A stretch of 47,442 bases of DNA from Rhodospirillales bacterium (GTDB taxonomy: Bacteria > Pseudomonadota > Alphaproteobacteria > BOG-932 > Roseiterribacteraceae): contig JAQGIF010000003.1 of assembly GCA_028291345.1 (NCBI GenBank), positions 1 to 47,442 of the forward strand, read 5' to 3'. A program made the translations under genes and the position numbers. The stretch's first letter is position 1; the number at the start of each line of letters is the position of its first letter. A model generated the notes under the pieces. It did not search any database. It had not been told where the DNA came from and was given only the letters and a program-made list of their open reading frames with translations. Shown in pieces: positions 32,683 to 45,392 of this stretch.

Positions 32683-33576
32683 TCAGAGACGCGCGACGAT
32701 TTCGTCTTGGAAGCGTTTTACATAGCGTTCGATGGCCGCCGGCTCGGTGCCACCCGCCTCATAGGCGGAGATGATCAACCGGGCCACTCCAAGCTGCGCG
32801 TAGGCTTTGCAGACGCCGAGATCGAGCGAACAGCCGAACCTATAGCTGCTGGGCGACACCGACAGCTCAATGGCGGCGGGGTCGCGTCCCGCCTCTTTCG
32901 CGGCGGTCTTCATCGTCTCGATGAGTGCGCCGAAATCATCCGGGGAGATGGCATGCGGAAAGAAACCGTCGCCGGTGCGGCCGGCCCGGCGGGCGGCCAC
33001 TTCCGTCGAGCCACCGATAATCAGCGGCACGAGGTTCGGATTGGCTGGCTTCGGATCGGAATGGACCCGGTGGAACTGATAATATTTGCCATCATAGCTG
33101 GCGATGTCGTCGCGCCATAGCGCGCGTACCGCGTCGATCCCCTCGTCCAGACGCTTACCGCGCTCGTTATACGGCACGCAGACGGCGGCGAACTCTTCCT
33201 TTTGCCAGCCGAGCCCGATGCCGAGCAGCACCCGGCCGTTCGACAGCGCATCCAAGGTCGCGACCCGCTTGGCGATGATGATGGGACTGTGCAGCGGCAG
33301 CAGGAGAACACCGGTGCCGAGCTTGAGCTTCTCGGTGCAGCCGGCGGCGAAGCCCAGCCATTCCAGCGGGTCCGGCATGATCGTGTCATTCGTGAACGGC
33401 GCGCGGCCATCCTCGGAATAGGAATAAAGCTGCTCGTAGTTCTCGGCGACGATCGGATGTTCGACGGTCCAGACGGATTCGACGCCCGCCGCCTCAATCG
33501 TCTGGAGGAACGGTTTGCACCAGCGCGCATTATCGATGAAGCCCTTGCTGAATAAGGGCAGTATCCCGATTTTCAT
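32683..33576 (-). CDS. LLM-class (luciferase-like) flavin/F420 oxidoreductase
   Basis: A 297-residue TIM-barrel protein of the bacterial luciferase-like group. Visible family segments are VESVWTVEHPIVAENY, LKLGTGVLLLPLHSPIIIAK and GRVLLGIGLGWQKEEF, then PLIIGGSTEVAARRAGRTGDGF. The last two segments are typical of TIGR03619-type proteins often annotated as F420-dependent, but the cofactor (FMN or F420) cannot be told from sequence alone. It is transcribed in line with the exported cluster (75 bases after the Yx(FWY)xxD gene) and may belong to that operon. Confidence 0.87.
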   Translation of the reverse strand: MKIGILPLFSKGFIDNARWCKPFLQTIEAAGVESVWTVEHPIVAENYEQLYSYSEDGRAPFTNDTIMPDPLEWLGFAAGCTEKLKLGTGVLLLPLHSPIIIAKRVATLDALSNGRVLLGIGLGWQKEEFAAVCVPYNERGKRLDEGIDAVRALWRDDIASYDGKYYQFHRVHSDPKPANPNLVPLIIGGSTEVAARRAGRTGDGFFPHAISPDDFGALIETMKTAAKEAGRDPAAIELSVSPSSYRFGCSLDLGVCKAYAQLGVARLIISAYEAGGTEPAAIERYVKRFQDEIVARL

Positions 33577-33651: not shown

Positions 33652-34935
33652 TTAGGGCGAAGTCGTCCGCCAATAGAGTCCCATACCGTGCCGCGCGTCG
33701 GCGACTTTTTCTGCACCGTCATTGACGGCGAGAGTATAGGTGTCCTGCCCGACAGTGTCTCCGGGTTTCCGATCCCCGGTATAATTATACACGGCATAAC
33801 CTTGATAGGCCCATTGCTTGGTGCCGTCGGGACGATCCATCAGCATCCAATAGCCGGACGGCTGAGCGTCCTTGGCGGCAATCAGCGGTATCCAGGTTTT
33901 GGTGCAGTCGCCTTCGCAGCCGCTGAGCCCGATCGTCATGCCGACCATCGGATTGCCACGATCGCCGCCGCGCGCACTGTGTCCACCAGTGCCGTTGAAG
34001 CTGATTCGGTCACGAGCATAGAGCGTCTTGCCGTCGGCATTCGCCAACAGGCCGCCCTTACGCTCGTTCAGCAGTATCTTAACGCCGGGCGGCATGAAAT
34101 AACGCTCGACCATAGCAATCTGGAAGTTCTTGTCCGCGCCCTGGCCGTTGGCATCGCCCAAGTCCGAATCGCCGGAAAAGGTAAAGAGCGGATTGCCTTT
34201 ATAGGCCCATTGCTGAATGCCGTCGTCGCGATTGACGATCGTGAAATCACCCATCGGATTGGAAAGCTGCCCCGTCGTCACTGGACGCCATTGCATGCCG
34301 CACGGGCCGGAGGCGCACTGGACCTTGCCGCTTTTGACATCGCCGCCATAAAGGTAAAGCGGCATGCCATGGGCATTGACGATGACCTGACCCGCAGCTT
34401 CCGCCACTTCGCGCACTTCGATGCCATAGGGCAATGCCATGCCGTCGGTCGGCGACATGGTTGCCATGTGCCAGACGCCATCGGCATTGTCGCCCTTATT
34501 ATCGCCGATCACCTTATCTTTGGCGAAGGTGTAAAGCGGTTTGCCCTCGAACGCCCATTGCTTGGCGCCGTCATCGCGGGTGATCACCGACCATTCATCG
34601 ACGTTCTTGGCGTCAGCCGAAGCGGCCAACGGTGCCCAGGTCGTGGCGCATTCCGCCGCGCAGGTGGATTTGCCGGGCGTGTCCTTGTCATAGGTATAGG
34701 CAGTCTTGCCCTTGCCGTCGGCATAGACGATGACCTGTTCCTGCTGATCCGAACTTGCGCCCGGCACCATGGTCACAGTGCCGATCTTGACCTTCTGGAA
34801 GGTCACGCCCAGCGGCGTCGATAGCCGCGCATCCAGATGTGGCGCCATCGGCTTCGGCTGCTTGATGAAATAGACGCCGCCGGCAACGATCGCCACGGCG
34901 GCTACGCCCGCTATCAGAGCTGATTTGAGCCCCAT
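33652..34935 (-). CDS. Exported protein with three Yx(FWY)xxD-type repeats (COG4315-like)
   Basis: 427 residues. A single N-terminal hydrophobic segment (SALIAGVAAVAIVAGGVYFI) acts as a signal or anchor; no lipobox is seen. Three similar units follow, near residues 68–147, 183–267 and 296–400. Each has an ADGK-type strand with a TAYTYDKD-like motif, a close cysteine pair (CAAEC, CASGPC, CEGDC), a W-x-P segment and an RxDGxxQWAxxGxxxYxF…GD ending. Such repeats occur in secreted lipoproteins of unknown function. The paired cysteines probably form disulfides. It is the fifth gene of the cluster starting at 40483. Confidence 0.8.
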   Translation of the reverse strand: MGLKSALIAGVAAVAIVAGGVYFIKQPKPMAPHLDARLSTPLGVTFQKVKIGTVTMVPGASSDQQEQVIVYADGKGKTAYTYDKDTPGKSTCAAECATTWAPLAASADAKNVDEWSVITRDDGAKQWAFEGKPLYTFAKDKVIGDNKGDNADGVWHMATMSPTDGMALPYGIEVREVAEAAGQVIVNAHGMPLYLYGGDVKSGKVQCASGPCGMQWRPVTTGQLSNPMGDFTIVNRDDGIQQWAYKGNPLFTFSGDSDLGDANGQGADKNFQIAMVERYFMPPGVKILLNERKGGLLANADGKTLYARDRISFNGTGGHSARGGDRGNPMVGMTIGLSGCEGDCTKTWIPLIAAKDAQPSGYWMLMDRPDGTKQWAYQGYAVYNYTGDRKPGDTVGQDTYTLAVNDGAEKVADARHGMGLYWRTTSP

Positions 34936-34969
34936 TTCTTAACTCCTCCCGCTTATACCAGCGACTAGA

Positions 34970-36310
34970 TCAGGCCATCACTTCGCTGATGGTCTTCGAG
35001 GTCAGCATCGAGTCCGTGCCCCAGCTGTTGATCGGCACACCGACCGCCTGCTGGACCGTCAGCCCGACGCGGGTCGACGGATCGCCCTTCGCGGCGACAT
35101 GGATGCCGGTCTTCATCCGTCCACCGGCGCTGCCGGCGGTAATGAGCGGCATGTTGTCGAGACTGTGGACCTTGGCATAACCGGTATCGGTGTTGGCGAG
35201 CAGCAGCATGCGGTCGAGCAGAGTGCCCTGTCCTTCCTTGATGCCGTCCAACGCGGTCAGCATGTCGGCGAGGCCGTGACCGGCCTGGCTGGCGAACCAG
35301 GTGACGTTCGGCTGATAACCCAGCTGCGCATCAACCGTTTCCTCGTGGCTGAACACGTGATGGGTCATCGACGAGCCGGTCCGCCGCAGCGACGAGGTCG
35401 CGTCGCTGAAGGTCACGTTGATGACCCGCGTCTGGCCGCAGGCGAGCGCATGAGACAGCAGGCCAGCGAACAGCTTGTGGTTAGCGGTGACCTGGGTGAT
35501 TTCCGTTCCGGGAGTCACCTCTTCCAGCTTGGTCGGCACGCTGCAGGCTTCGAGCGGCGCGGGCTTCTGCAATTCGAGGTCGAGCTGCTGTTCGATCTGG
35601 CGCAAAGATGAGAAATATTCGTCCAGGCGCGCACGGTCGGAAGCGCCGAGAGTCTTCATCAAATCGTCGCGCTGGTCCTTGACCGCCGAGAGCACGCTCT
35701 GGCGCGCCATGACCTGCGGATCGGGCGTGAAGTCGGCGGCGTTCGGATCCTTGAACTCCGGCCCGAAGATACGGGTGTAGAGCGCAACGGGCGAGGTTTC
35801 GGCCGGGTTGAGGGCGGCGCCGGGGCGGCGGCTATAGGAATGGGCCGGGTTCCCGGTCGAGGTGACCTCGATCGAGCGGAAGCGCGTCTTGGTGCCGATC
35901 ACCTCGCTGACCAGCATATCGACGGTGGGCAGGATCACACGTTCCTCGCGCGGGGTCGTGCCGGTGAGAACCGCCCATTCGCCGGTGAAGTGGGTGATCA
36001 TCGGGCGGCCGTCGAGGATGACCTTCGTGCCGGAATAGACATTGACCTTGTCCTTGAACGGGGTCAGCGGTTCCAGCTCGGGACCGAACTGGGTGATCTT
36101 GCCCTCGCCCTTCGGTTCCCAGCGGCCCGGATTGAGGCCGAGGCCCCAGAACCAGGTGCCGAACGCCACTGGCAATGCCGCGCCGTTCGCGAAGGCGGTG
36201 CCGTTCGTGTCGAGGAAGCAATCCAGGAAAGGCACGCCGATCGTCACAGCGCTGCCGCCGAGCATGCCTTTGAGGATATTGCGGCGATTGACTTGCTTGA
36301 GAGGGATCAT
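34970..36310 (-). CDS. DUF1552 family protein, Tat-exported
   Basis: 446 residues. The N-terminus NRRNILKGMLGGSAVTIGVPFLD is a twin-arginine signal (core NRRNILKG), so the protein folds in the cytoplasm before export. DUF1552 spans the rest, with FGTWFWGLGLNPGRWEP near the start, THFTGEWAVLTGT, SIEVTSTGNPAHSYS and the ending HGLADMLTALDGIKEG…LLLANTDTGYAKVHSLDNMP, recognised by LLANTDTGYAKVHS. The family is common in Planctomycetes and myxobacteria, where it is coded with DUF1592 proteins; its activity is unknown. It starts 12 bases after the DUF1592 gene. Confidence 0.9.
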   Translation of the reverse strand: MIPLKQVNRRNILKGMLGGSAVTIGVPFLDCFLDTNGTAFANGAALPVAFGTWFWGLGLNPGRWEPKGEGKITQFGPELEPLTPFKDKVNVYSGTKVILDGRPMITHFTGEWAVLTGTTPREERVILPTVDMLVSEVIGTKTRFRSIEVTSTGNPAHSYSRRPGAALNPAETSPVALYTRIFGPEFKDPNAADFTPDPQVMARQSVLSAVKDQRDDLMKTLGASDRARLDEYFSSLRQIEQQLDLELQKPAPLEACSVPTKLEEVTPGTEITQVTANHKLFAGLLSHALACGQTRVINVTFSDATSSLRRTGSSMTHHVFSHEETVDAQLGYQPNVTWFASQAGHGLADMLTALDGIKEGQGTLLDRMLLLANTDTGYAKVHSLDNMPLITAGSAGGRMKTGIHVAAKGDPSTRVGLTVQQAVGVPINSWGTDSMLTSKTISEVMA

Positions 36311-36322
36311 TGCTGACGCTCC

Positions 36323-38062
36323 TTAATGTTCAGATGCGAGTTTGGAAGGAGATGGCGTATCGATCGCCCCCGTCTGCGGCGGAAGTGCACGGTAGAAAAC
36401 GTCGCTCGAGGCGATGTTGCGGAGCAGATCCGGGAATTTATAGCCGCTGGCCTCAAAGTTCTTCTGCAAGTCGCTCTTCATCCATTCAGATTCGGATTTG
36501 TTGGGCTTATGGCCAGCAGCGAATTCATAGAGGCGGTTGACAATGCAATTGCTGGTCGCCGGGTTGTCGTGCACGGCCTTACCGAGCCCGACGACGTCGT
36601 TGAACTTCAAACCGTCCAGCTCACCGCTAGCATCAATCGCGGCGCCGTTTTCCATGGAGCGATAACCACCGATCGTGTCGAAGTTCTCCAGCGCCAAGCC
36701 GACCGGATCCATCAGCTTGTGACAGCCGACGCAGGTCGCTTCGGTGGCGTGGGCCTTCAACCGCTGCCGCGCCGTCTTGAAGTTCGGATTGGTAGTGTCC
36801 TGGACCAGATTGAAATTTACATTCCCCGGCGGGTCGGGGACCTTCTGGCACAGCATGACCTCACGAAGCGCCTTGCCCCGCACGGTCGCCGAACTGCGGC
36901 CCGGCTGCGAATGCAGCCCGACGAAGCTGGCTTCGGTCAGGATTCCCGCCTGCGGAACGTCGGCAGGAAATTCGAACGGAACCCAAGGCGCGAGCACACC
37001 CTCGGGGAAGGTCGCCTGAACGCGGTAGATCGAGGCCAGCAACGGCGTGAGGAACGTTTTGTGGGTGGTGAACAGATCGCGGTAATCGCCCGTCTGCACC
37101 AGCAGATGATCAACGATCGTCCGAAGCGTCTGTTCTTGTGAGTCGCTCAGCACGTTGGACGTGAATTTCGGATAGAGCGTCGTGTCCTTGGCGAGCGTGT
37201 TGAAGCCGTCGAAGGCCAGCATGTCGCTGAAGAAGGCGCGAACGCCGGTTTCGACACGGGGTGACGCCAGCATCCGGTCGACCTGCTTCTTGAGGCCGCT
37301 GGAAGTATTGAGGTCTCCCTTCTCCGCCGCGGTCAGCAATTCGGGATCGGGCGCGGCATTCCACAGGAAGAAGCTAAGCCGCGACGCCTTGGAATAGGCT
37401 GTCAGGCGATACCAACCGGCATGATCCGGATCGGGCTCGACCGCTTCCTGACGAAAGAGGAATTGCGGTGCCTCAAGCAGGCCGGCAAGGCTCAGGCCCA
37501 GGCCGCTATAGAAATTCTTGACCTTCGTCGCCGATGCATTGGCCGCGGCAACCTGTGACGCCAACTCACGGTCGGTCAGTGGACGACGATAAAGCAGACG
37601 CCCAACCTTGCTGAGGAATTGCTTGGCGCAGGCATCGTCCGCGGCCGTGTCTGAAGCCGGCTTGCAGGGGACCAGCAGCGCGCGATGCTTTTCATCCACG
37701 ACCTGCGCCGCGATCGAGCGGGCCATATTGTCATATTGCTCGAGACCCGCCGCGGTCACGCTGACCTGACCGGCGCCGACGGCCAACAGACCGGCATCGC
37801 GTACGTCCGGCTCGAACCGGCCGCCGAGCGAAACGGTGGAGCCGAAGACGTCCGTGATGATCTGGCGGTATTGCTCCTGCGTCAGCCGGCGCATCGCGAC
37901 GGCCCCCGCCGCGGGCGCGCTGTCGGCACGTGCCGTATCGGCGATCCCGACGAGGCTGAGCGCGGCCATCGCACCGCCCAGTATCATGGCGCGGAGCGGT
38001 ATGCTCCGCCGATAGATCCCACTTCTGCTCGTCATTCCCTTGCCCTTATCGTTGTAGGTCAT
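36323..38062 (-). CDS. DUF1592-type multidomain exported protein with one c-type haem site
   Basis: 579 residues from the ATG at 38062; an ATG 27 bases later, behind AAGGGCAAGGGA, is an alternative. A signal peptide (AMILGGAMAALSLVGIADTARA) is followed by the DUF1587/1595/1592/1588/1585 series typical of planctomycetal proteins: RRLTQEQYRQIITDVFG, VGRLLYRRPLTDREL, SRLSFFLWNAAPD, GLHSQPGRSSATVRGKALRE, and CVGCHKLMDPVGLALENFD. CVGCH at 444–448 is a single c-type haem-binding motif in the position usual for DUF1588. The pairing with DUF1552 is the known genomic association. A redox role is inferred. Confidence 0.9.
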   Translation of the reverse strand: MTYNDKGKGMTSRSGIYRRSIPLRAMILGGAMAALSLVGIADTARADSAPAAGAVAMRRLTQEQYRQIITDVFGSTVSLGGRFEPDVRDAGLLAVGAGQVSVTAAGLEQYDNMARSIAAQVVDEKHRALLVPCKPASDTAADDACAKQFLSKVGRLLYRRPLTDRELASQVAAANASATKVKNFYSGLGLSLAGLLEAPQFLFRQEAVEPDPDHAGWYRLTAYSKASRLSFFLWNAAPDPELLTAAEKGDLNTSSGLKKQVDRMLASPRVETGVRAFFSDMLAFDGFNTLAKDTTLYPKFTSNVLSDSQEQTLRTIVDHLLVQTGDYRDLFTTHKTFLTPLLASIYRVQATFPEGVLAPWVPFEFPADVPQAGILTEASFVGLHSQPGRSSATVRGKALREVMLCQKVPDPPGNVNFNLVQDTTNPNFKTARQRLKAHATEATCVGCHKLMDPVGLALENFDTIGGYRSMENGAAIDASGELDGLKFNDVVGLGKAVHDNPATSNCIVNRLYEFAAGHKPNKSESEWMKSDLQKNFEASGYKFPDLLRNIASSDVFYRALPPQTGAIDTPSPSKLASEH

Positions 38063-38094
38063 TATTGCCCCGCCCGCTTCAAAATACCTGGGCT

Positions 38095-39258
38095 TCAATG
38101 TGCTTGCGCCAAGCGCTGAACCTTGCCGGCCAGCGCGGTCTTGTCGCCTTTGTCCGGATGAACCACGAAGGCCGGAACCGCCTCGATCCAATAGGAGGAG
38201 GAAATATACTGGTTCTGCCCCGTGCTGTCGGGATAGGCGTCGGCCATTTTCTTCATCGCGTAATAGATGCCCGGCGCATCGATCGACAGGTTGAGTTCAT
38301 TGACCGACCCGCCGAGCGCATAGCCGGTATAGACCGGTAGCCAGGGCTGATAGCCACCCAGAATGCCCTTGGCAGTGCCGTCCGGATTCAGAGTGAGCCG
38401 GATCCGCGTCTGCTTGAAGCGATATTCCGAGACGCCAAACGGGTCCTGGATCATGTAGAACTCGAACGGGTCGGTGGTGAGCGTCCCGTTCTTCATCGTC
38501 GCATGCGCAACATTCTGCATGCGCGGATCGTTGTCGGCCTGGAATGTCAGATCGGCTTGCGGCTCGCCCGCCGCATTGCGCATGATCGGGCCGGTCGAAC
38601 GATAGAAGCCGACCTTGACGTCGCCGTCCATGATCGAGCCATCGGCATTATGCTCGATTCCGGAGACCTCGATCACCCATGCGGGCATCTGGTCCCGGGT
38701 CATGTCCCACTGGATCGCCGGGAAGGTCGGGCGAGAACCGCCGCTCGCCCGCGCGGTGATGAAACAGCCAAGCGCGCGGTAGAGCTTGTCGTCTACACCC
38801 GTTTCCTTAGTCTGCGGATCGACGAAATCGTCTGGCCCGTTCTTGCCATCGAGATTGAAACCGTAAGCGACATGGCCCTTAGCCGTCTTGACATTCGGAT
38901 CGGGAATTGCGGTCGGGTGGGTGTAGATATTGACCGGCTTGCCATCGACCTTCCCGCGCATCACGACCGCGCCGTACATGTTGTTCGGAAAGTCCTTGTA
39001 TGCGGCTTCGATTTCCGCCGGGCTTTTTCCCATGTCGGTCAGCCACTTGCGCGCCATTACCTCTGACAATGGGTTGGTGCCTTCCGGGCAATCGTCGGCC
39101 TGCGATTCAGCGGCCATATAGAACCAGCTGACAACAAAGCCCCGCGTTTCCGCCATCGCGGCGCGCGCCGTGAGACCAGACGCCAGCAGGGCAACCGCGG
39201 CAACCGCCAGGCCGCGTTCCAAAAGATGGCGCGCCCGACCCGTTCCGTTTCCGATCAT
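38095..39258 (-). CDS. Exported protein of unknown family, paralogue A
   Basis: 387 residues from the ATG at 39258, chosen because GGGGAG lies 7 bases upstream; an ATG 15 bases earlier is also open. The signal peptide GLAVAAVALLASGLTARAAMA is followed by a mature start ETRGFVVSWFYMA. It is about half identical along its whole length to the next upstream gene, sharing VDxxLYRALGCF, IQWDMTRDQMPAWVI, GILGGYQPW and DAPGIYYAMKKMADAYPD. Two cysteines are conserved in both copies (DDCPEG and ALGCF), suggesting a disulfide. No haem or metal motif is seen. Function unknown. Confidence 0.82.
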   Translation of the reverse strand: MIGNGTGRARHLLERGLAVAAVALLASGLTARAAMAETRGFVVSWFYMAAESQADDCPEGTNPLSEVMARKWLTDMGKSPAEIEAAYKDFPNNMYGAVVMRGKVDGKPVNIYTHPTAIPDPNVKTAKGHVAYGFNLDGKNGPDDFVDPQTKETGVDDKLYRALGCFITARASGGSRPTFPAIQWDMTRDQMPAWVIEVSGIEHNADGSIMDGDVKVGFYRSTGPIMRNAAGEPQADLTFQADNDPRMQNVAHATMKNGTLTTDPFEFYMIQDPFGVSEYRFKQTRIRLTLNPDGTAKGILGGYQPWLPVYTGYALGGSVNELNLSIDAPGIYYAMKKMADAYPDSTGQNQYISSSYWIEAVPAFVVHPDKGDKTALAGKVQRLAQAH

Positions 39259-39286
39259 AGAATTGCTCCCCATATCGACTGCCTTT

Positions 39287-40483
39287 TCAATGCACGCGGA
39301 CCGCGTCGGGCGCGCTCTCCGCCGATGCTGTTTTGCTTGGTTCCTGCGGCTTCACCACGAATGCTGGAATGCCTTCGATGACGAAGGCGCACGAGATTGC
39401 CGTATTCTGGCCTGTTTTGTCGGGATAGGCATCCGCCATTTTCTTCAGTGCATAGTAAATCCCGGGCGCGTCGACCGACAGATTGACCTCGTTCGTCGAA
39501 CCCGGCAGGCCATAGCTCACATAGAGCGGCATCCAGGGCTGATAGCCGCCCAGTATCCCCGTTACTGTGCCGTCCCGCTTTATTGTCAGCCGCAGTTTCG
39601 CATCCATTATATGGTATTCCGGAACGGCAAATGGATCGTCGACCATATTGAAAACAAATCTCTCGCTCGTGAAGACGCCGTTATGGATCTTTCCATTCAC
39701 GGTGTTCTGCGAGCGCAGGTCCGAATCGACATTGAAGGTCATATCCGATTGCGGCTCGCCCGAGACGTTGCGGATGACGGGCCCGGTCGCACGATGAATA
39801 TCAACAGTGGCGTCGCCATCCTTGATCGATCCGTCCGCGTTCGCCTCGACGCCGTCGATCCTGATCACCCACGCCGGCATTTGGTCGCGCGTCATATCCC
39901 ATTGGATCGCCGGATAGCTCGGCCGTTCCGGCGGCATCGCCCGTTCGGTGTGGAAGCACCCGAGCGCGCGGTACAGCTGGTTATCTACCCCCGCTTCGTT
40001 GGTCTCGGGGTCCACGAAATCGTCCGCCTTGACCTTGCCATCTAGGTTAAAGCCATAGGCAAAGTGGCCCTTGACGGTGTGGACCATCGGATCCGGCTCG
40101 GACGCGGGATTCTGATAGATATTGACCTGCTGGCCATTGATGCGGCCGCGATTGACGATAAGCGGCCGAATGCCGGGATTGTTCGGAAAACCGACCATCA
40201 GAGCATCGACCTCATCGGGCGTTTTGCCGATATTCTTGAGGATGTTGCGAACCATGACATCGGCGTTCGGATTCAGGCCTGCGGGACAATCGCCATCCTG
40301 CGAATAGCTCGCCCGATGGAACCAACTGACAACGTAACCACGCGTCTCGCCGGCCGATGCGCTGCTCAGCGGCACGGCGAAGGACGCCAAAGCTGCGAGC
40401 CCCATGCAGCCCAGCGCCGCCTTCGACCGGAGCCGGCGCATAATCCGCGCCTGCCCGACCGATAACGATGTCTGTTTCAGCAT
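39287..40483 (-). CDS. Exported protein of unknown family, paralogue B
   Basis: 398 residues with a signal peptide ending SFAVPLSSASA. The mature start ETRGYVVSWFHRA mirrors paralogue A. Shared blocks include YAFGFNLDG-like FAYGFNLDGK, LYRALGCF, IQWDMTRDQMPAWVI, GILGGYQPW and DAPGIYYALKKMADAYPD. The conserved cysteine pair is GDCPAG and ALGCF; a third cysteine (ISCAFVIEG) is unique to this copy. GGGGAGG lies 8 bases before the ATG. It is the first gene of the leftward cluster, directly behind the palindrome-containing promoter. A tandem duplication has produced the pair. Confidence 0.82.
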   Translation of the reverse strand: MLKQTSLSVGQARIMRRLRSKAALGCMGLAALASFAVPLSSASAGETRGYVVSWFHRASYSQDGDCPAGLNPNADVMVRNILKNIGKTPDEVDALMVGFPNNPGIRPLIVNRGRINGQQVNIYQNPASEPDPMVHTVKGHFAYGFNLDGKVKADDFVDPETNEAGVDNQLYRALGCFHTERAMPPERPSYPAIQWDMTRDQMPAWVIRIDGVEANADGSIKDGDATVDIHRATGPVIRNVSGEPQSDMTFNVDSDLRSQNTVNGKIHNGVFTSERFVFNMVDDPFAVPEYHIMDAKLRLTIKRDGTVTGILGGYQPWMPLYVSYGLPGSTNEVNLSVDAPGIYYALKKMADAYPDKTGQNTAISCAFVIEGIPAFVVKPQEPSKTASAESAPDAVRVH

Positions 40484-40621: not shown

Positions 40622-41092
40622 TCAGCGCTTGACGGAAGCCGCTCTCAGCGCCGCCGAAACCGCCGTATCGAGTGCGACCAGGAAACGGGACCGGTCGGAT
40701 TTTGCGAAGGAAGACGGTCCGCCGGTCGCGACTCCGAGTTCCCGCAAATGCCGACCTATCTCGCGACCAGCCAGCGCGCTGCCGATATTGTCGGACGTCC
40801 AGAGCTTGCCGTTGTGCGCCAAAGCGCGGGCGTTTTTCGCCAGGCAGCGGGATGCCAAGGGGATGTCGGCAGTCACGCAGATATCGGACGATGTGATGTG
40901 CTCGGCGATCCAGTCGTCAGCAATATCGGCGCCCTCGCCCACCGTGATCATCTTGATCGCCGGGTTGGGGACCGGCCGAATCGGCCGGGAGCCGTTAGAA
41001 ACGACATAGACCGTCAAAGTGTATCGCGCCGCGACGCGATACACTTCCTCGCGAACCGGACAGGCGTCCGCGTCTATATAGATATCGGTCAC
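40622..41092 (-). CDS. YaiI/YqxD family protein (UPF0178, DUF188)
   Basis: 156 residues, the usual length. The N-terminal IYIDADACPVREEVYRVA and the middle ICVTADIPLASRCLAKNARALAHNG, recognised by TADIPLASRCLAKNA, are the family hallmarks of this PIN-like fold. Conserved aspartates in DADACP and TADIPLA suggest a metal-dependent nuclease, but no activity is established for the family. It is downstream of and codirectional with the small protein at 41115. Confidence 0.9.
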   Translation of the reverse strand: MTDIYIDADACPVREEVYRVAARYTLTVYVVSNGSRPIRPVPNPAIKMITVGEGADIADDWIAEHITSSDICVTADIPLASRCLAKNARALAHNGKLWTSDNIGSALAGREIGRHLRELGVATGGPSSFAKSDRSRFLVALDTAVSAALRAASVKR

Positions 41093-41114
41093 GTCCGATT
41101 GATGTCGATCGGGT

Positions 41115-41339
41115 CTACCGAATCGGCGACCGCTTCATCGATTTGATAGGGCCGCGCGACCGGCCAGACATCTCGGCGATCTTGCGGTCCTGGGCCTCGA
41201 TCAGCGCCTTGGCCGAGTTGTCGCCGTCGATTGGGTCGAGATCGGCGCTCGCCACGCGACGGTTCGAGGTCATTGCCCCATCCTGATAGATGACGTCGAA
41301 TGCGATGAATTCGCTTTCCGCAGGTTTCTTGCGAGCCAT
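41115..41339 (-). CDS. Small conserved hypothetical protein
   Basis: 74 residues from the ATG at 41339, with AGGAAG about 10 bases upstream. The strand-rich start ESEFIAFDVIYQDGAMTSNRRV and the basic end GRSRGPIKSMKRSPIR look like a real small protein of a type I associate with sphingomonads; no function is known. There is no signal peptide or membrane segment. The frame continues upstream only through sequence without similarity. It lies 22 bases before the YaiI gene. Confidence 0.6.
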   Translation of the reverse strand: MARKKPAESEFIAFDVIYQDGAMTSNRRVASADLDPIDGDNSAKALIEAQDRKIAEMSGRSRGPIKSMKRSPIR

Positions 41340-41525
41340 GGGTAGTTGCTTCCTGTTGGTCGGCGGTTCCAGACGAGCGGTCTTATATGGGTGGCCCTGC
41401 ATTGTCACGCCAGCCACGCTCCTGCGCCACAAATGCATGCCGATTGCGCATAGCTGGCATGGAGGAAATCTGGTGCAAACGGTCGCACCAATATTGCGTT
41501 GCAGCACACCGAGCCATACTTAGAT

Positions 41526-41539
41526 ACGAGACGTTTCGT
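41526..41539. promoter_or_regulatory. Imperfect palindrome, candidate TetR operator
   Basis: ACGAGACGTTTCGT pairs at 12 of 14 positions about its centre and is followed by further TTTCG repeats (to 41553). It lies 26 bases before the TetR start and resembles the short palindromes at which TetR regulators control their own pump operons. Autoregulation is inferred. Confidence 0.4.
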
Positions 41540-41564
41540 TTCGTTTAATTTCGTGAATGGTCCG

Positions 41565-42182
41565 ATGGTCCCCGTTTTAGTCGACCCAGCGCCTGCCACA
41601 CGTGGCGGTCGTCCGCGCAGCGAAGACTGCCGCCAGAAGGTCCTAGCCGCCGCCGATACTTTGTTCGCGCGCGAAGGGCTTGCGCGCATGTCGGTGGACG
41701 GCATCGCCCAGTCGGCCGGGGTCAGCAAGGCCACGATCTATCGCTGGTGGCCCAACAAGTCGGCCATTGTCATGGAAGCGTTGCTGGCCTCGACGGAGGC
41801 TGAGGTCTATGTCCCGGTCAGCCCGTTTCCCGAGGAAGACCTAATCGCCAAAATCAAGCGGACCGTCGCGCTGTTCCGCGGACCGCGCGGGCCGGTCGTC
41901 GCGTCGCTGATCGGCCAAGCGCAGTCAGACCCCGAAATTGCCGAGGCCTATCGTCACCGACTGCTGGGGCCGCGCCGGGCCGCGATGCGCGGCGCCATCC
42001 AGCGCGCGATCGAGGCAGGTCTCTACCGTGCCGATATCGATTTCGATCTGGCGATCGATATCCTCTATGGGCCACTTTATCAGCGCCTACTGCTCCGCCA
42101 TGCACCCTTGGACGAGGCGTTCGAACGTGACTATCCGCCGGTCGCGGTGGCCGCCCTGCGGGTCTATGCAGGGAGGCCATAG
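41565..42182 (+). CDS. TetR/AcrR family transcriptional regulator
   Basis: 205 residues. The N-terminal DNA-binding domain is standard: VLAAADTLFAREGLARMSVDGIAQSAGVSKATIYRWWPNKSAIV, recognised by GVSKATIYRWWPNKSAI. The C-terminal ligand-binding domain is helical and ends near LYQRLLLRHAPLDEAF, a TetR_C_11-like layout. It stands 3 bases before the RND gene on the same strand, so it is probably cotranscribed and controls the pump. The start is uncertain: ATG 41565 or GTG 41553, both without a clear ribosome binding site. Confidence 0.9.
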   Translation: MVPVLVDPAPATRGGRPRSEDCRQKVLAAADTLFAREGLARMSVDGIAQSAGVSKATIYRWWPNKSAIVMEALLASTEAEVYVPVSPFPEEDLIAKIKRTVALFRGPRGPVVASLIGQAQSDPEIAEAYRHRLLGPRRAAMRGAIQRAIEAGLYRADIDFDLAIDILYGPLYQRLLLRHAPLDEAFERDYPPVAVAALRVYAGRP

Positions 42183-42185
42183 GCC

Positions 42186-45100
42186 GTGGGTATCGTAAAA
42201 TTCGCGCTGCGCTTCCCGCACACATTCTATGTCGTCGCCGTCCTCATCCTGTTTCTGGGCATCAGCGCGATCGTCACGACCCCGACCGACATCTTCCCGC
42301 AGATCCGCATCCCGGTGGTCAGCGTCATCTGGCAATATACCGCCCTCAGCCCCGACGAGATGGAAGCACGCGTCGCGACCTATAGCGAGTATTCGATCAG
42401 CTCGACCGTCAACGGCATCAAGGACATGGAATCCCAGACCCTGTCCGGGATCGTCGTCCAGAAGATCTATTTCCAGCCAAACGTGAATCTGGAACTGGCG
42501 ATCTCGCAGATTGTCTCGGCGACTAACTCGATCCGCGCCTTGATGCCGCCCGGAATCAACCCGCCGGTCATTGTACAGTTCAACGCCTCCAGCGTGCCGA
42601 TCCTCCAGCTCAGCCTGAGTTCCGACCAGCTCAACGAGCAGCAGCTTTACGATTACGGCATCTACCAGGTGCGCCAACAGCTCGCACCGATCCCCGGCAT
42701 CACGCTGCCGACGCCCTACGGCGGCAAATATCGCCAGATCATGGTCGATCTCGACCCGAAGGCCTTGCTGGCCCAGGGCTTAACCCCGACCGACGTCACC
42801 AACGCCGTGAACGCGCAGAATCTGACCGTTCCCTCGGGGGATGCGAAGATCGGCGACAAGCAATATATCGTCAAGCTGAACGCCCAGCCGCAGACCGTGG
42901 CGGCCTTGAACGACATCCCCATTCGCCAGGTCAACGGCACGACCGTCTATCTGCGCGACGTCGCACATGTGCGCGACGCCTGGGCGGTTCAGCAGAATAT
43001 CGTGCGGACCGGCGGCAAGCGCTCGGTCCTGCTCACGATCATCAAAAACGGCGAAGCTTCGACGCTGGACGTAGTTAATCGGGTCAAGGCGGCACTGCCC
43101 GGCGTGCGCGCCGCGGCCCCGCCCGGCATGGAAATCAAGGAGCTGTTCGACCAGTCCGTCTTCGTCAGCGATTCGATCAACGCCGTGCTGCGCGAGGGCG
43201 CGATCGCCGCCGGCCTGACAGCGCTGATGATCCTGATGTTCCTGGGGTCCTGGCGCTCGACCGTGGTGGTCATGGTGTCGATCCCGCTGTCGATCCTGAC
43301 CTCCATCGCGATCCTGTCGGCGCTTGGCGAAACCATCAACACGATGACCTTAGGTGGCCTGGCGCTCGCGGTCGGCATACTGGTCGACGATTCGACCGTG
43401 ACGATAGAGAACACTCACCGGCTGCTCGATGACGGCCATCCGTTCGACCGCGGCGTGCTGGAAGGCGCAGCCGGGATCGCGGTGCCGACCCTGGTCTCCA
43501 CCCTCGCCATCTCCTGCGTGTTCATCTCGGTCGTCTTCCTGGACGGGGCGCCGCGCTATCTGTTCACCCCGCAGGGCATGGCAGTAGTGTTCGCGATGCT
43601 GGCGTCATACGGCCTGTCGCGGACCCTGACCCCAATCATTATCCGCACTTTACTGCGCCGCGAGCATGAGCAGAAGCACGACACCGGCCGCAAGGCAGGC
43701 TGGTTCGGCCGCTTCCATGAAGGATTCAATCACCGGTTCGAGCGGTTCCGGACGTTCTATGTCTGGCTGCTGGGGCGGTTGCTTACACGCCGTCTGATCG
43801 TGCCGGCTGTTGCCGGGTCGGTGATCGTCGTCGCGGCCGGTCTGGCGCCCTTCGTCGGGCGGGACTTCTTCCCCAGCGTCGACGCCGGCGTGATCCAGCT
43901 GCATGTCCGTGCGCCTGCCCGCACCCGCATTGAGGAAACCGAGAAGATATTCCAGGCGGTCGAAAACCAGATTCGCGACACCATCCCCGAGAATGAGCGC
44001 GACTTGATACTCGACAATATCGGCCTGCCCCAGCGGACGATCAATCTGGCCTTCACCGACGGCTCGGCCATCGGCGTCAATGACGGCGTGATCCAGGTCG
44101 CGCTGAAACCCGGCCATGCGCCGACTGCGGATTATGTAAAGCGGCTGCGCGAGGAGCTGCCCGCCGCCTTCCCGGATGTGCGTTTCTATTTCCAGCCCGC
44201 CGACATGGTGACGCAGATCCTGAATTTCGGCGTACCGACCCAGGTCGATGTCGAGGTCGTGGGGCACGACCGCGCCAAGAATCTGGAGCTTGCCCAGGAT
44301 TTGCAGCGGCGCATGTCCAACGTTCCCGGCGCAGTGGATGTCCATCTGCAGCAGGAGACCGACGCGCCGGAACTTTACTATTCCATCGACCGGACCCGCG
44401 CGCAGGAACTGGGCCAGACAGTGAGCGCGATCTCCAACAATCTGATGATCAGCCTGAGCTCGTCGGAGCAGGTCTTTCCGAATTTCTGGACCGACACGAA
44501 GGTCGGCATCCCCTATTACTTAGCAGTGCAGACGCCGGAATATCGCATTTCGTCGCTGAACGACTTGAACAATATCGCGCTGAGCTCGACCTCCGGCACC
44601 GGCGCGCCGGTTCCCGACACCCTGGGCAATGTCGCGCAGTTCGAGCGCAAAAGCATCCAGTCGGTCATCAATCATTCGAACGTGCAGCCGGTCTATGACA
44701 TCTACGCCAGCGTGCAGGACCGCGACCTGGGCGGAGTCGCCTCGGCTATCGATAAGATCGTCGCCCAAGAAACGCCGAAGCTTGCGCCCGGCAACCACAT
44801 CGTCGTGCGGGGCCAGATCGAAAGCATGAACTCCGCCTTCTCGCGCCTGACTCTCGGGCTGATCTTCGCGGCGGTGTTCGTCTATCTGCTGATGGTCGTC
44901 AATTTCCAAGATTTCCTGGATCCATTCGTGGTCATACTGGCGCTGCTGGGGGCGGCCTGCGGCATTATCGTGGCCCTGTTCATCACCGGTACGACGCTCA
45001 GCGTGCCATCGCTGATGGGGGCGATCATGTCGATCGGCGTCGCCTCGGCCAATTCGATCCTGCTGGTCACATTCGCCCGCGAACAGAGCCTTGAGGGCAA

Positions 45101-45392
45101 GAGCCCGATAGAGGCCGCCATCGCCGCCGGCGGCACGCGGCTGCGGCCCGTGCTGATGACCGCTGCGGCGATGATCGTCGGAATGCTGCCGATGGCGATC
45201 GGCGGCGCCGGCGAAGAACAGAATGCCGTCCTGGCCCGCGCCGTCATCGGCGGCCTGCTGTTCGGCACTTGCACGACCCTGCTGGTCGTACCCTATCTCT
45301 ATGCCCTGCTCCGCCGCACAGTCGGCGAGCATAAGCGCAATGAAATCGATTTCGGGGAATCCACCCCCAGCGAAAAAGGTCACCTAGCATGA
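42186..45392 (+). CDS. RND efflux pump, inner-membrane permease
   Basis: 1068 residues, full length for a homotrimeric proton-driven HAE/RND transporter. TM1 is near 13–31, with the periplasmic porter domain starting PTDIFPQIRIPVVSVIW. The proton-relay aspartates Asp401–Asp402 lie in VGILVDDSTVTIENT (TM4). A second, symmetric half follows, with LLMVVNFQDFLDPFVVILALLGAACGI and the TM10 stretch MSIGVASANSILLVTFAREQ. Start is GTG, with GGGAGG upstream inside the regulator gene's end. The substrate is unknown. The adaptor gene overlaps its stop as ATGA. Confidence 0.94.
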   Translation: MGIVKFALRFPHTFYVVAVLILFLGISAIVTTPTDIFPQIRIPVVSVIWQYTALSPDEMEARVATYSEYSISSTVNGIKDMESQTLSGIVVQKIYFQPNVNLELAISQIVSATNSIRALMPPGINPPVIVQFNASSVPILQLSLSSDQLNEQQLYDYGIYQVRQQLAPIPGITLPTPYGGKYRQIMVDLDPKALLAQGLTPTDVTNAVNAQNLTVPSGDAKIGDKQYIVKLNAQPQTVAALNDIPIRQVNGTTVYLRDVAHVRDAWAVQQNIVRTGGKRSVLLTIIKNGEASTLDVVNRVKAALPGVRAAAPPGMEIKELFDQSVFVSDSINAVLREGAIAAGLTALMILMFLGSWRSTVVVMVSIPLSILTSIAILSALGETINTMTLGGLALAVGILVDDSTVTIENTHRLLDDGHPFDRGVLEGAAGIAVPTLVSTLAISCVFISVVFLDGAPRYLFTPQGMAVVFAMLASYGLSRTLTPIIIRTLLRREHEQKHDTGRKAGWFGRFHEGFNHRFERFRTFYVWLLGRLLTRRLIVPAVAGSVIVVAAGLAPFVGRDFFPSVDAGVIQLHVRAPARTRIEETEKIFQAVENQIRDTIPENERDLILDNIGLPQRTINLAFTDGSAIGVNDGVIQVALKPGHAPTADYVKRLREELPAAFPDVRFYFQPADMVTQILNFGVPTQVDVEVVGHDRAKNLELAQDLQRRMSNVPGAVDVHLQQETDAPELYYSIDRTRAQELGQTVSAISNNLMISLSSSEQVFPNFWTDTKVGIPYYLAVQTPEYRISSLNDLNNIALSSTSGTGAPVPDTLGNVAQFERKSIQSVINHSNVQPVYDIYASVQDRDLGGVASAIDKIVAQETPKLAPGNHIVVRGQIESMNSAFSRLTLGLIFAAVFVYLLMVVNFQDFLDPFVVILALLGAACGIIVALFITGTTLSVPSLMGAIMSIGVASANSILLVTFAREQSLEGKSPIEAAIAAGGTRLRPVLMTAAAMIVGMLPMAIGGAGEEQNAVLARAVIGGLLFGTCTTLLVVPYLYALLRRTVGEHKRNEIDFGESTPSEKGHLA

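Follow-up and report, generated by a model that had tools for sequence, protein, structure and literature searches.

Planctomycete-type PSCyt3/PSD proteins combine five Pfam domains with a CxxCH motif in the DUF1588 part, and their genes adjoin a gene of the HXXSHH/DUF1552 family. This DUF1592–DUF1552 neighbourhood has already been published, without a function (PMC5615132). A related cluster lies at positions 33652–40483 of a 47,442-nucleotide stretch (the window) from contig JAQGIF010000003.1 of a Rhodospirillales bacterium, whose 5.63 Mb draft assembly (GCA_028291345.1) comprises 401 contigs. The cluster encodes a DUF1592 protein with the same five domains in the same order, an adjoining DUF1552 protein, and two paralogues, A and B. 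The gene pair is known but unexplained; what is new here is a short DUF1592 subtype with its partner A. We found no description of the A family or of the short subtype in the open-access literature, nor an open-access paper in which the terms DUF1592 and DUF1552 occur together.

The five genes, called as longest frames, all lie on the reverse strand. From right to left they encode A, an exported-type protein (39287–40483, 398 aa); its paralogue B (38095–39273, 392 aa); the short-type DUF1592/DUF1588 (PSD4/PSCyt3) protein (36323–38062, 579 aa from ATG, with an alternative longer TTG frame reaching 38191); the DUF1552 protein (34970–36310, 446 aa); and a Lipoprotein_15 repeat protein (33652–34935, 427 aa). 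The intergenic gaps are 13, 32, 12 and 34 bases in this order. All five domains of the DUF1592 product (DUF1592, DUF1588, DUF1595, DUF1585 and DUF1587; PF07631, PF07627, PF07637, PF07624 and PF07626) score above the Pfam cut-off, as does DUF1552 (PF07586; 154.5 against a cut-off of 30). The only CxxCH among the five products is a CVGCH haem-c binding motif, read from the sequence at 36719–36733 (reverse strand) in the DUF1592 protein, which sets the cluster apart from extracellular electron transfer systems built of multihaem cytochromes and a porin. Export signals were assessed by hydrophobicity (15-mer threshold 1.6) and by eye. A, B and the DUF1592 protein have Sec-like N termini, and the DUF1552 protein has a twin-arginine N terminus whose top 15-mer, at 1.53, is slightly below the threshold. 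The last product, which we take to be COG4315-like, a name carried over from the preliminary description of this DNA, has a hydrophobic N-terminal anchor and three cysteine pairs. Its Lipoprotein_15 repeats, matched in five stretches, relate it to the SCO0930 family lipoproteins, from which it differs in its score (157.8 bits against the NF040526 cut-off of 275) and in having no lipobox cysteine. The preliminary description had proposed five leftward genes separated by 12–35 bases, export signals on every product, a single CxxCH site, a DUF1592–DUF1552 pair and a COG4315-like protein with cysteine pairs; these features were recovered, the export signals as export-type N termini.

The DUF1592 protein belongs to a compact group that differs from the long PSCyt3/PSD forms in frame length (541–640 versus 810–2369 aa), in haem motifs and in the presence of A. 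One CxxCH, in the DUF1588 part, is found in 34 of 34 short homologues, and six cysteines are invariant; the seven long-DUF1592 loci have 2–4 CxxCH motifs and an adjoining DUF1552 gene in every case, and no A. Most of the scanned long forms also differ in architecture. Three of four (all except L148) have an N-terminal cytochrome-like match, two of these below the Pfam cut-offs, and in three of four (all except L153) 197–288 residues lie between DUF1587 and DUF1595, compared with only about 22–24 in the three short proteins scanned. The extra N-terminal cytochrome domain of the long forms was not found in the window protein, which is therefore assigned to the short subtype and not to the long architecture. 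Of the 23 A proteins in the genus, 22 were aligned (fragment L050 was left out); the DUF1552 alignment drew on 23 of 36 proteins and the DUF1592 alignment on 20 of 34. Conservation was counted over the rows that passed a length limit (46 of 48 for A, 34 of 36 for DUF1552 and 13 of 15 for Lipoprotein_15).

The accompanying DUF1552 proteins likewise depart from the family's namesake motif. The window protein, which matches the family profile and adjoins the DUF1592 gene as expected, reads HVFSHE at 35342–35359 (reverse strand), that is, HXXSHH with the last histidine replaced by glutamate. At the short-type loci the residue after Hxx[ST]H is E (32), D (8), T (1) or N (1) and never H (42/42). In nine comparison DUF1552 proteins, all matching our own profile, the full HxxSHH occurs in only three, so the motif is not universal within the family. 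Searches of viral contigs with A and DUF1592 confirmed nothing, and none of the annotated phages searched had a DUF1552 match. Several IMG/VR contigs (L114–L121, L122 and L123) were found with DUF1552 genes that are 39–43% identical to the window's and have an HQSTHE motif; L123 includes a 27% relative with HNLSHH. These genes have no adjoining DUF1592 or A gene and are located at about 5.0–6.3 kb in L114, L116, L120 and L121. Some of the contigs look T4-type-like by eye, with ribonucleotide-reductase- and dCMP-deaminase-like neighbours.

The paralogues, which the preliminary description had assigned to no recognised family, indeed have no match in Pfam, NCBIfam or PADLOC. A 22-row profile of the A family found nothing among PDB sequences up to E 10, and single members searched against Pfam gave only stray matches (best E 0.039, in one or two of 22 members). 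A and B are identical at 211 of 392 aligned residues. Two cysteines, C62 and C170 of B, are conserved in all 46 family rows with a length of 350 aa or more and likely form a disulfide. In a tree of 51 A rows, B groups with a lone copy from the same genome (L038, 9184–10356) and with three tandem genes of the related genome bog_932, a group in which A branches first; the A/B pair is a local duplication, in place of which bog_932 has the three tandem genes. In this tree five loci of one genome pair with loci of the other (L032/L043, L037/L044, L036/L040, L035/L041 and L034/L042); the copies are therefore old and have been retained. Isolated A genes, with neither DUF1592 nor DUF1552 alongside, also occur at L110, L111 and L112. 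The idea that A is a detached DUF1587–DUF1595 stretch of the long forms was dropped at an hhalign probability of 0.1% (four rows); the A profile had no match in the long DUF1592 proteins or their neighbours. In genome G560, nine A matches, some of them fragmentary, accompany one PSCyt3 gene. On the plasmid of S. herbicidovorans (L132:12566–13911) A is apparently split over two frames, of which only the downstream one matches the A profile, and the DUF1592 and DUF1552 genes are intact.

The three genes A, DUF1592 and DUF1552 recur together. The window genome (G000, in which the window is contig C256) has seven PSCyt3 genes, bog_932 (G001) has nine and G002, a third genome of the same genus, has three. 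At all 19 loci DUF1552 adjoins DUF1592, and an A gene is present at 18, the exception being L051 in G002. The window locus is syntenic in bog_932, where the DUF188, TetR, resistance-nodulation-division (RND) pump, luciferase-like oxidoreductase and nucleoside deoxyribosyltransferase genes are all present at 75–94% protein identity. The seven recurrences in one genome and the conserved synteny argue for more than chance. Beyond the genus the module is sparse. Neither A nor PSCyt3 was matched in 93 of 96 searched relatives, including G003 of the same family. Roseiterribacter gracilis, described in PMC11164329 as the first cultivated member of the BOG-932 lineage, to which the window genome probably belongs, has a genome of about 4.2 Mb.

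Wider searches covered 398 genomes of the phylum and 385 of the class, with scoring of A limited to the four top candidates in each genome. In the phylum set A was found in two genomes (G000 and G162), both with PSCyt3, and eight further genomes had a PSCyt3 match (five above the cut-off) and no A. In the class set A occurred in six genomes, PSCyt3 in seven and both in six (Fisher p 1.6e-12, ancestry ignored); in the seventh, G754, the match is weak and sits at the end of a contig. On this count of 7/385 we rejected the idea that the trait is general among Alphaproteobacteria. In the family of G162 (the second family, 105 genomes), A was found in 17 genomes, PSCyt3 in 18 and both in 16 (p 8e-16, ancestry again ignored). 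In G580, the sole genome with A alone, the A gene is incomplete and lies at the edge of a contig, and the two PSCyt3-only genomes, G513 and G576, encode long forms (frames of 811–1105 aa); one further PSCyt3 place, a 201-aa frame in G564:C6, lay outside the reading.

Altogether 42 short-DUF1592 loci were compared: 19 from the window genus, 16 from the second family, five from plasmids and two from further families. DUF1552 is adjacent in all 42, and a same-strand A gene lies within 2 kb in 38, a count that is partly biased because most second-family loci were retrieved through their A matches; the 18 of 19 window-genus loci and the genome tallies of the second family are free of this bias. The four exceptions are L051, L135 (A elsewhere on the plasmid), L146 (A beyond DUF1552, at a distance of about 2.4 kb from DUF1592) and L147 (truncated where its contig stops). 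Two gene orders occur, A-DUF1592-DUF1552 and DUF1592-DUF1552-A(-A). Protein distances among the three partners co-vary over 38 loci (0.78, 0.91 and 0.87; 0 of 2000 permutations as high), and at the seven own-genome loci only to 0.59, 0.56 and 0.75 (46, 63 and 6 of 2000 permutations as high). A Lipoprotein_15 gene lies on the same strand within 2.5 kb at only 15 of the 42. The core unit is thus A, DUF1592 and DUF1552, with the Lipoprotein_15 gene as an accessory; it is found in at least four alphaproteobacterial families and on plasmids of Sphingobium and Novosphingobium. The earlier expectation that A/B accompany DUF1592 and DUF1552 largely held (six of six class genomes with A, 16 of 17 in the second family, 38 of 42 loci). 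Of the proposed single five-gene system, the undescribed A/B family and its co-occurrence with the pair stood, but the core proved to be three genes in seven copies.

Neighbouring families were scanned at selected representative loci. A cytochrome c' gene follows the module at five second-family loci (confirmed by Pfam) and in Sphingobium TomMM7A. Quinoprotein-like neighbours are found at L040, with a cupredoxin end, at L107, with a cytochrome match, and at L037, where the protein is nearest to the 'empty quinoprotein' group and below that group's cut-off. A pair of 2Fe-2S and molybdopterin oxidoreductase genes occurs at three loci. Glyoxalase-like proteins and TonB receptors were further scanned neighbours. 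Flavin adenine dinucleotide (FAD) enzymes near modules resemble 3-ketosteroid dehydrogenases, at scores below the cut-off for that name, and a Rieske oxygenase with a KshA_C domain begins 28–29 bases after DUF1552 in L034 and its orthologue L042. Seven KshA_C genes score above the cut-off in the window genome and none in 14 control genomes. Examples are G000:C162:14141–14728 and G000:C160:12246–15678, one gene on C160 adjoining a KstD-like gene; these genes suggest that this uncultured lineage may be able to degrade steroids. TonB receptor matches number at least 48 in the window genome, 46 of them above the cut-off (the list missed the receptor at L033), and the receptor was rejected as a constant partner of the module. 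The TonB receptor near one paralogous operon (L032:7389–10229) carries an OmpA domain at its C terminus.

The module also occurs on plasmids of Sphingobium and Novosphingobium. In tblastn searches of plasmids, DUF1592 relatives were found in 16 records, 12 of them Sphingobium, and A in 13, namely 12 Sphingobium and Novosphingobium RL4; five plasmid regions were read. The order in TomMM7A is TonB receptor, a divergent gene, A, DUF1592, DUF1552, cytochrome c' and cytochrome b561. Genes for glycoside hydrolases of families GH3 and GH106, an alpha/beta hydrolase and a rhamnosidase lie about 12 kb from the operon, with an RND pump in between. On the opposite side, within about 15 kb, are a KshA_C Rieske gene, acyl-CoA dehydrogenases and a CoA ligase. 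S. herbicidovorans has a similar layout, with an RND pump alongside and glycosidases about 12 kb away. According to the part of PMC10653915 available, the saponin-degrading enzymes SpGH3-1, SpGH106-1 and SpGH78-1 come from one region of Sphingobium RC1 for steroidal-saponin catabolism, and the isolates named there include TomTYG65, TomTYG72, TomTYG74 and TomMM15; we find the operon on plasmids of these four. The glycosidases near the operon in TomMM7A and S. herbicidovorans are of the same families in the same order as those described for RC1 in that part of the paper. Because the family order agrees, the Sphingobium cluster is probably the same as the RC1 saponin cluster. The module genes are not mentioned in that portion of PMC10653915, and the words 'cytochrome' and 'TonB' do not occur in its main text.

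With moderate confidence we propose that A, the short DUF1592 protein and DUF1552 form an extracytoplasmic haem redox module for the catabolism of bulky compounds. The preliminary description had suggested a periplasmic or surface redox module; the haem motif in all 34 homologues and the redox genes recurring nearby agree with it, and the redox role itself would follow from this motif and the gene context. After export by Sec or Tat, the DUF1592 protein would carry one haem c. The other half of the active unit would be DUF1552, whose fold may be a divergent form of the alkaline-phosphatase superfamily with a histidine/acid site of its own. A might be a disulfide-bonded partner that binds the substrate or holds the unit together, and it could diverge among copies to suit different substrates. 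Outside the cytoplasm, at the periplasm or cell surface, the unit would oxidise organic compounds that are bulky and permeate poorly. The electrons would exit by way of separate carriers, which would be cytochrome c' and cytochrome b561 in Sphingobium and may be of the cupredoxin or another type in other bacteria; these carriers would replace the extra haem domain of the long DUF1592 proteins. Steroid- or triterpenoid-like substrates are our best current guess. More tentatively, and with some doubt, the module could be an undescribed extracytoplasmic haem enzyme that initiates oxidation of steroids, triterpenoids or other bulky compounds of this kind. A would then be an exchangeable subunit that recognises the substrate, and electrons would exit through cytochrome c'/b561; if true, the planctomycete-type DUF1592/DUF1552 pair would thereby gain its first function. 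The compact form, the dedicated partner, the electron-carrier genes in a row and the saponin-region site in cultured Sphingobium strains make the question of function testable by gene deletions.

Several observations weigh against this proposal. The AlphaFold models of A (five rows, mean predicted local distance difference test score, pLDDT, 41) and DUF1552 (seven rows, mean pLDDT 42) are too poor for use, and the co-occurrence p values take no account of shared ancestry. Only one of the seven KshA_C genes of the window genome is at a module, and TonB receptors were found near two of its seven modules. Five KstD-like matches are nearly full-length, two of them with an internal stop, and none is above the cut-off; the search also matched all 14 control genomes and so weighs little. 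Unlike the RC1 saponin region, the window locus has no adjoining glycosidase; it has no cytochrome c', b561 or KshA gene alongside either, and none of the quinoprotein-like, molybdopterin or other recurring redox genes adjoins it. Our literature searches found nothing on the activity, haem content, expression or localisation of the module. Finally, the long forms have been linked to carbohydrates in PMC5615132.

This last point bears on the alternative that survives best, namely a compact version of the carbohydrate or glycoside oxidation suggested for Verrucomicrobia planctomycete-type cytochromes, an oxidative counterpart of glycoside hydrolases that would work on sugars or sugar chains in the periplasm. 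Some PSCyt genes bear carbohydrate-binding modules and sit near sulfatases, as reported in PMC5615132, and a DUF1592 protein of Cellvibrio with a carbohydrate-binding module (CBM2-DUF1592) is tabulated in PMC6004670; the Sphingobium operon, too, has glycoside hydrolases about 12 kb away. However, the short type has no insert of about 200–290 residues between DUF1587 and DUF1595, as found in three of the four scanned long forms, and there was no glycosidase in the part of the neighbours scanned at window-genus or second-family loci; we regard carbohydrate oxidation as rather improbable.

It is unlikely that catalysis lies instead with DUF1552, as a periplasmic hydrolase of the esterase, sulfatase or phosphatase-like kind, and that the DUF1592 haem and A serve only in its assembly or regulation. 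The protein does have conserved residues (H107, H318, H322, H382 and D366), and carboxylesterases occur near three scanned loci. Judged by their names, nearly all of the 50 Foldseek matches listed for its model are alkaline-phosphatase-superfamily enzymes. Yet the model is the low-confidence one described above and none of its matches reaches E 0.001 (best 0.05), which makes them only a hint; DUF1552 has no PDB relative by sequence, and the haem motif is conserved as strictly as the DUF1552 residues.

Slightly less credible still is a part in protecting the envelope from toxic amphiphiles (for instance bile salts, saponins or hopanoid-like compounds), in which the module would detoxify or sense such compounds and not serve feeding. 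Efflux genes are close by. DUF188, TetR and RND pump genes lie upstream of A at 40622–45392, conserved in bog_932 at 83–94%, an RND pump adjoins the module in TomMM7A and S. herbicidovorans, and TetR-like genes recur near second-family loci. Catabolic feeding nevertheless accounts better for up to nine diverged copies per genome and for neighbours such as acyl-CoA dehydrogenases, a CoA ligase and KshA. A role in defence in the sense of PADLOC was dropped for want of any match to that database.

Selfish or neutral expansion of a lineage, with no shared function and A present by linkage, could explain why one genus has seven to nine copies and why the distribution is patchy (7/385 genomes), but is very improbable given the same three partners in two different gene orders, the paralogue pairs kept between species and the conserved residues.

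Of the candidate transcription signals, the promoter-like site upstream of A (40574–40547) was set aside as one of 5 such sites against 2.6 expected, and terminator-like sites number 6 against 6.1 expected. Beyond the last operon gene, after 75 bases, begins a TIGR03619 luciferase-like oxidoreductase gene (32683–33576, above the NCBIfam cut-off), which keeps its position in bog_932 at 86% identity and may be co-transcribed with the operon.

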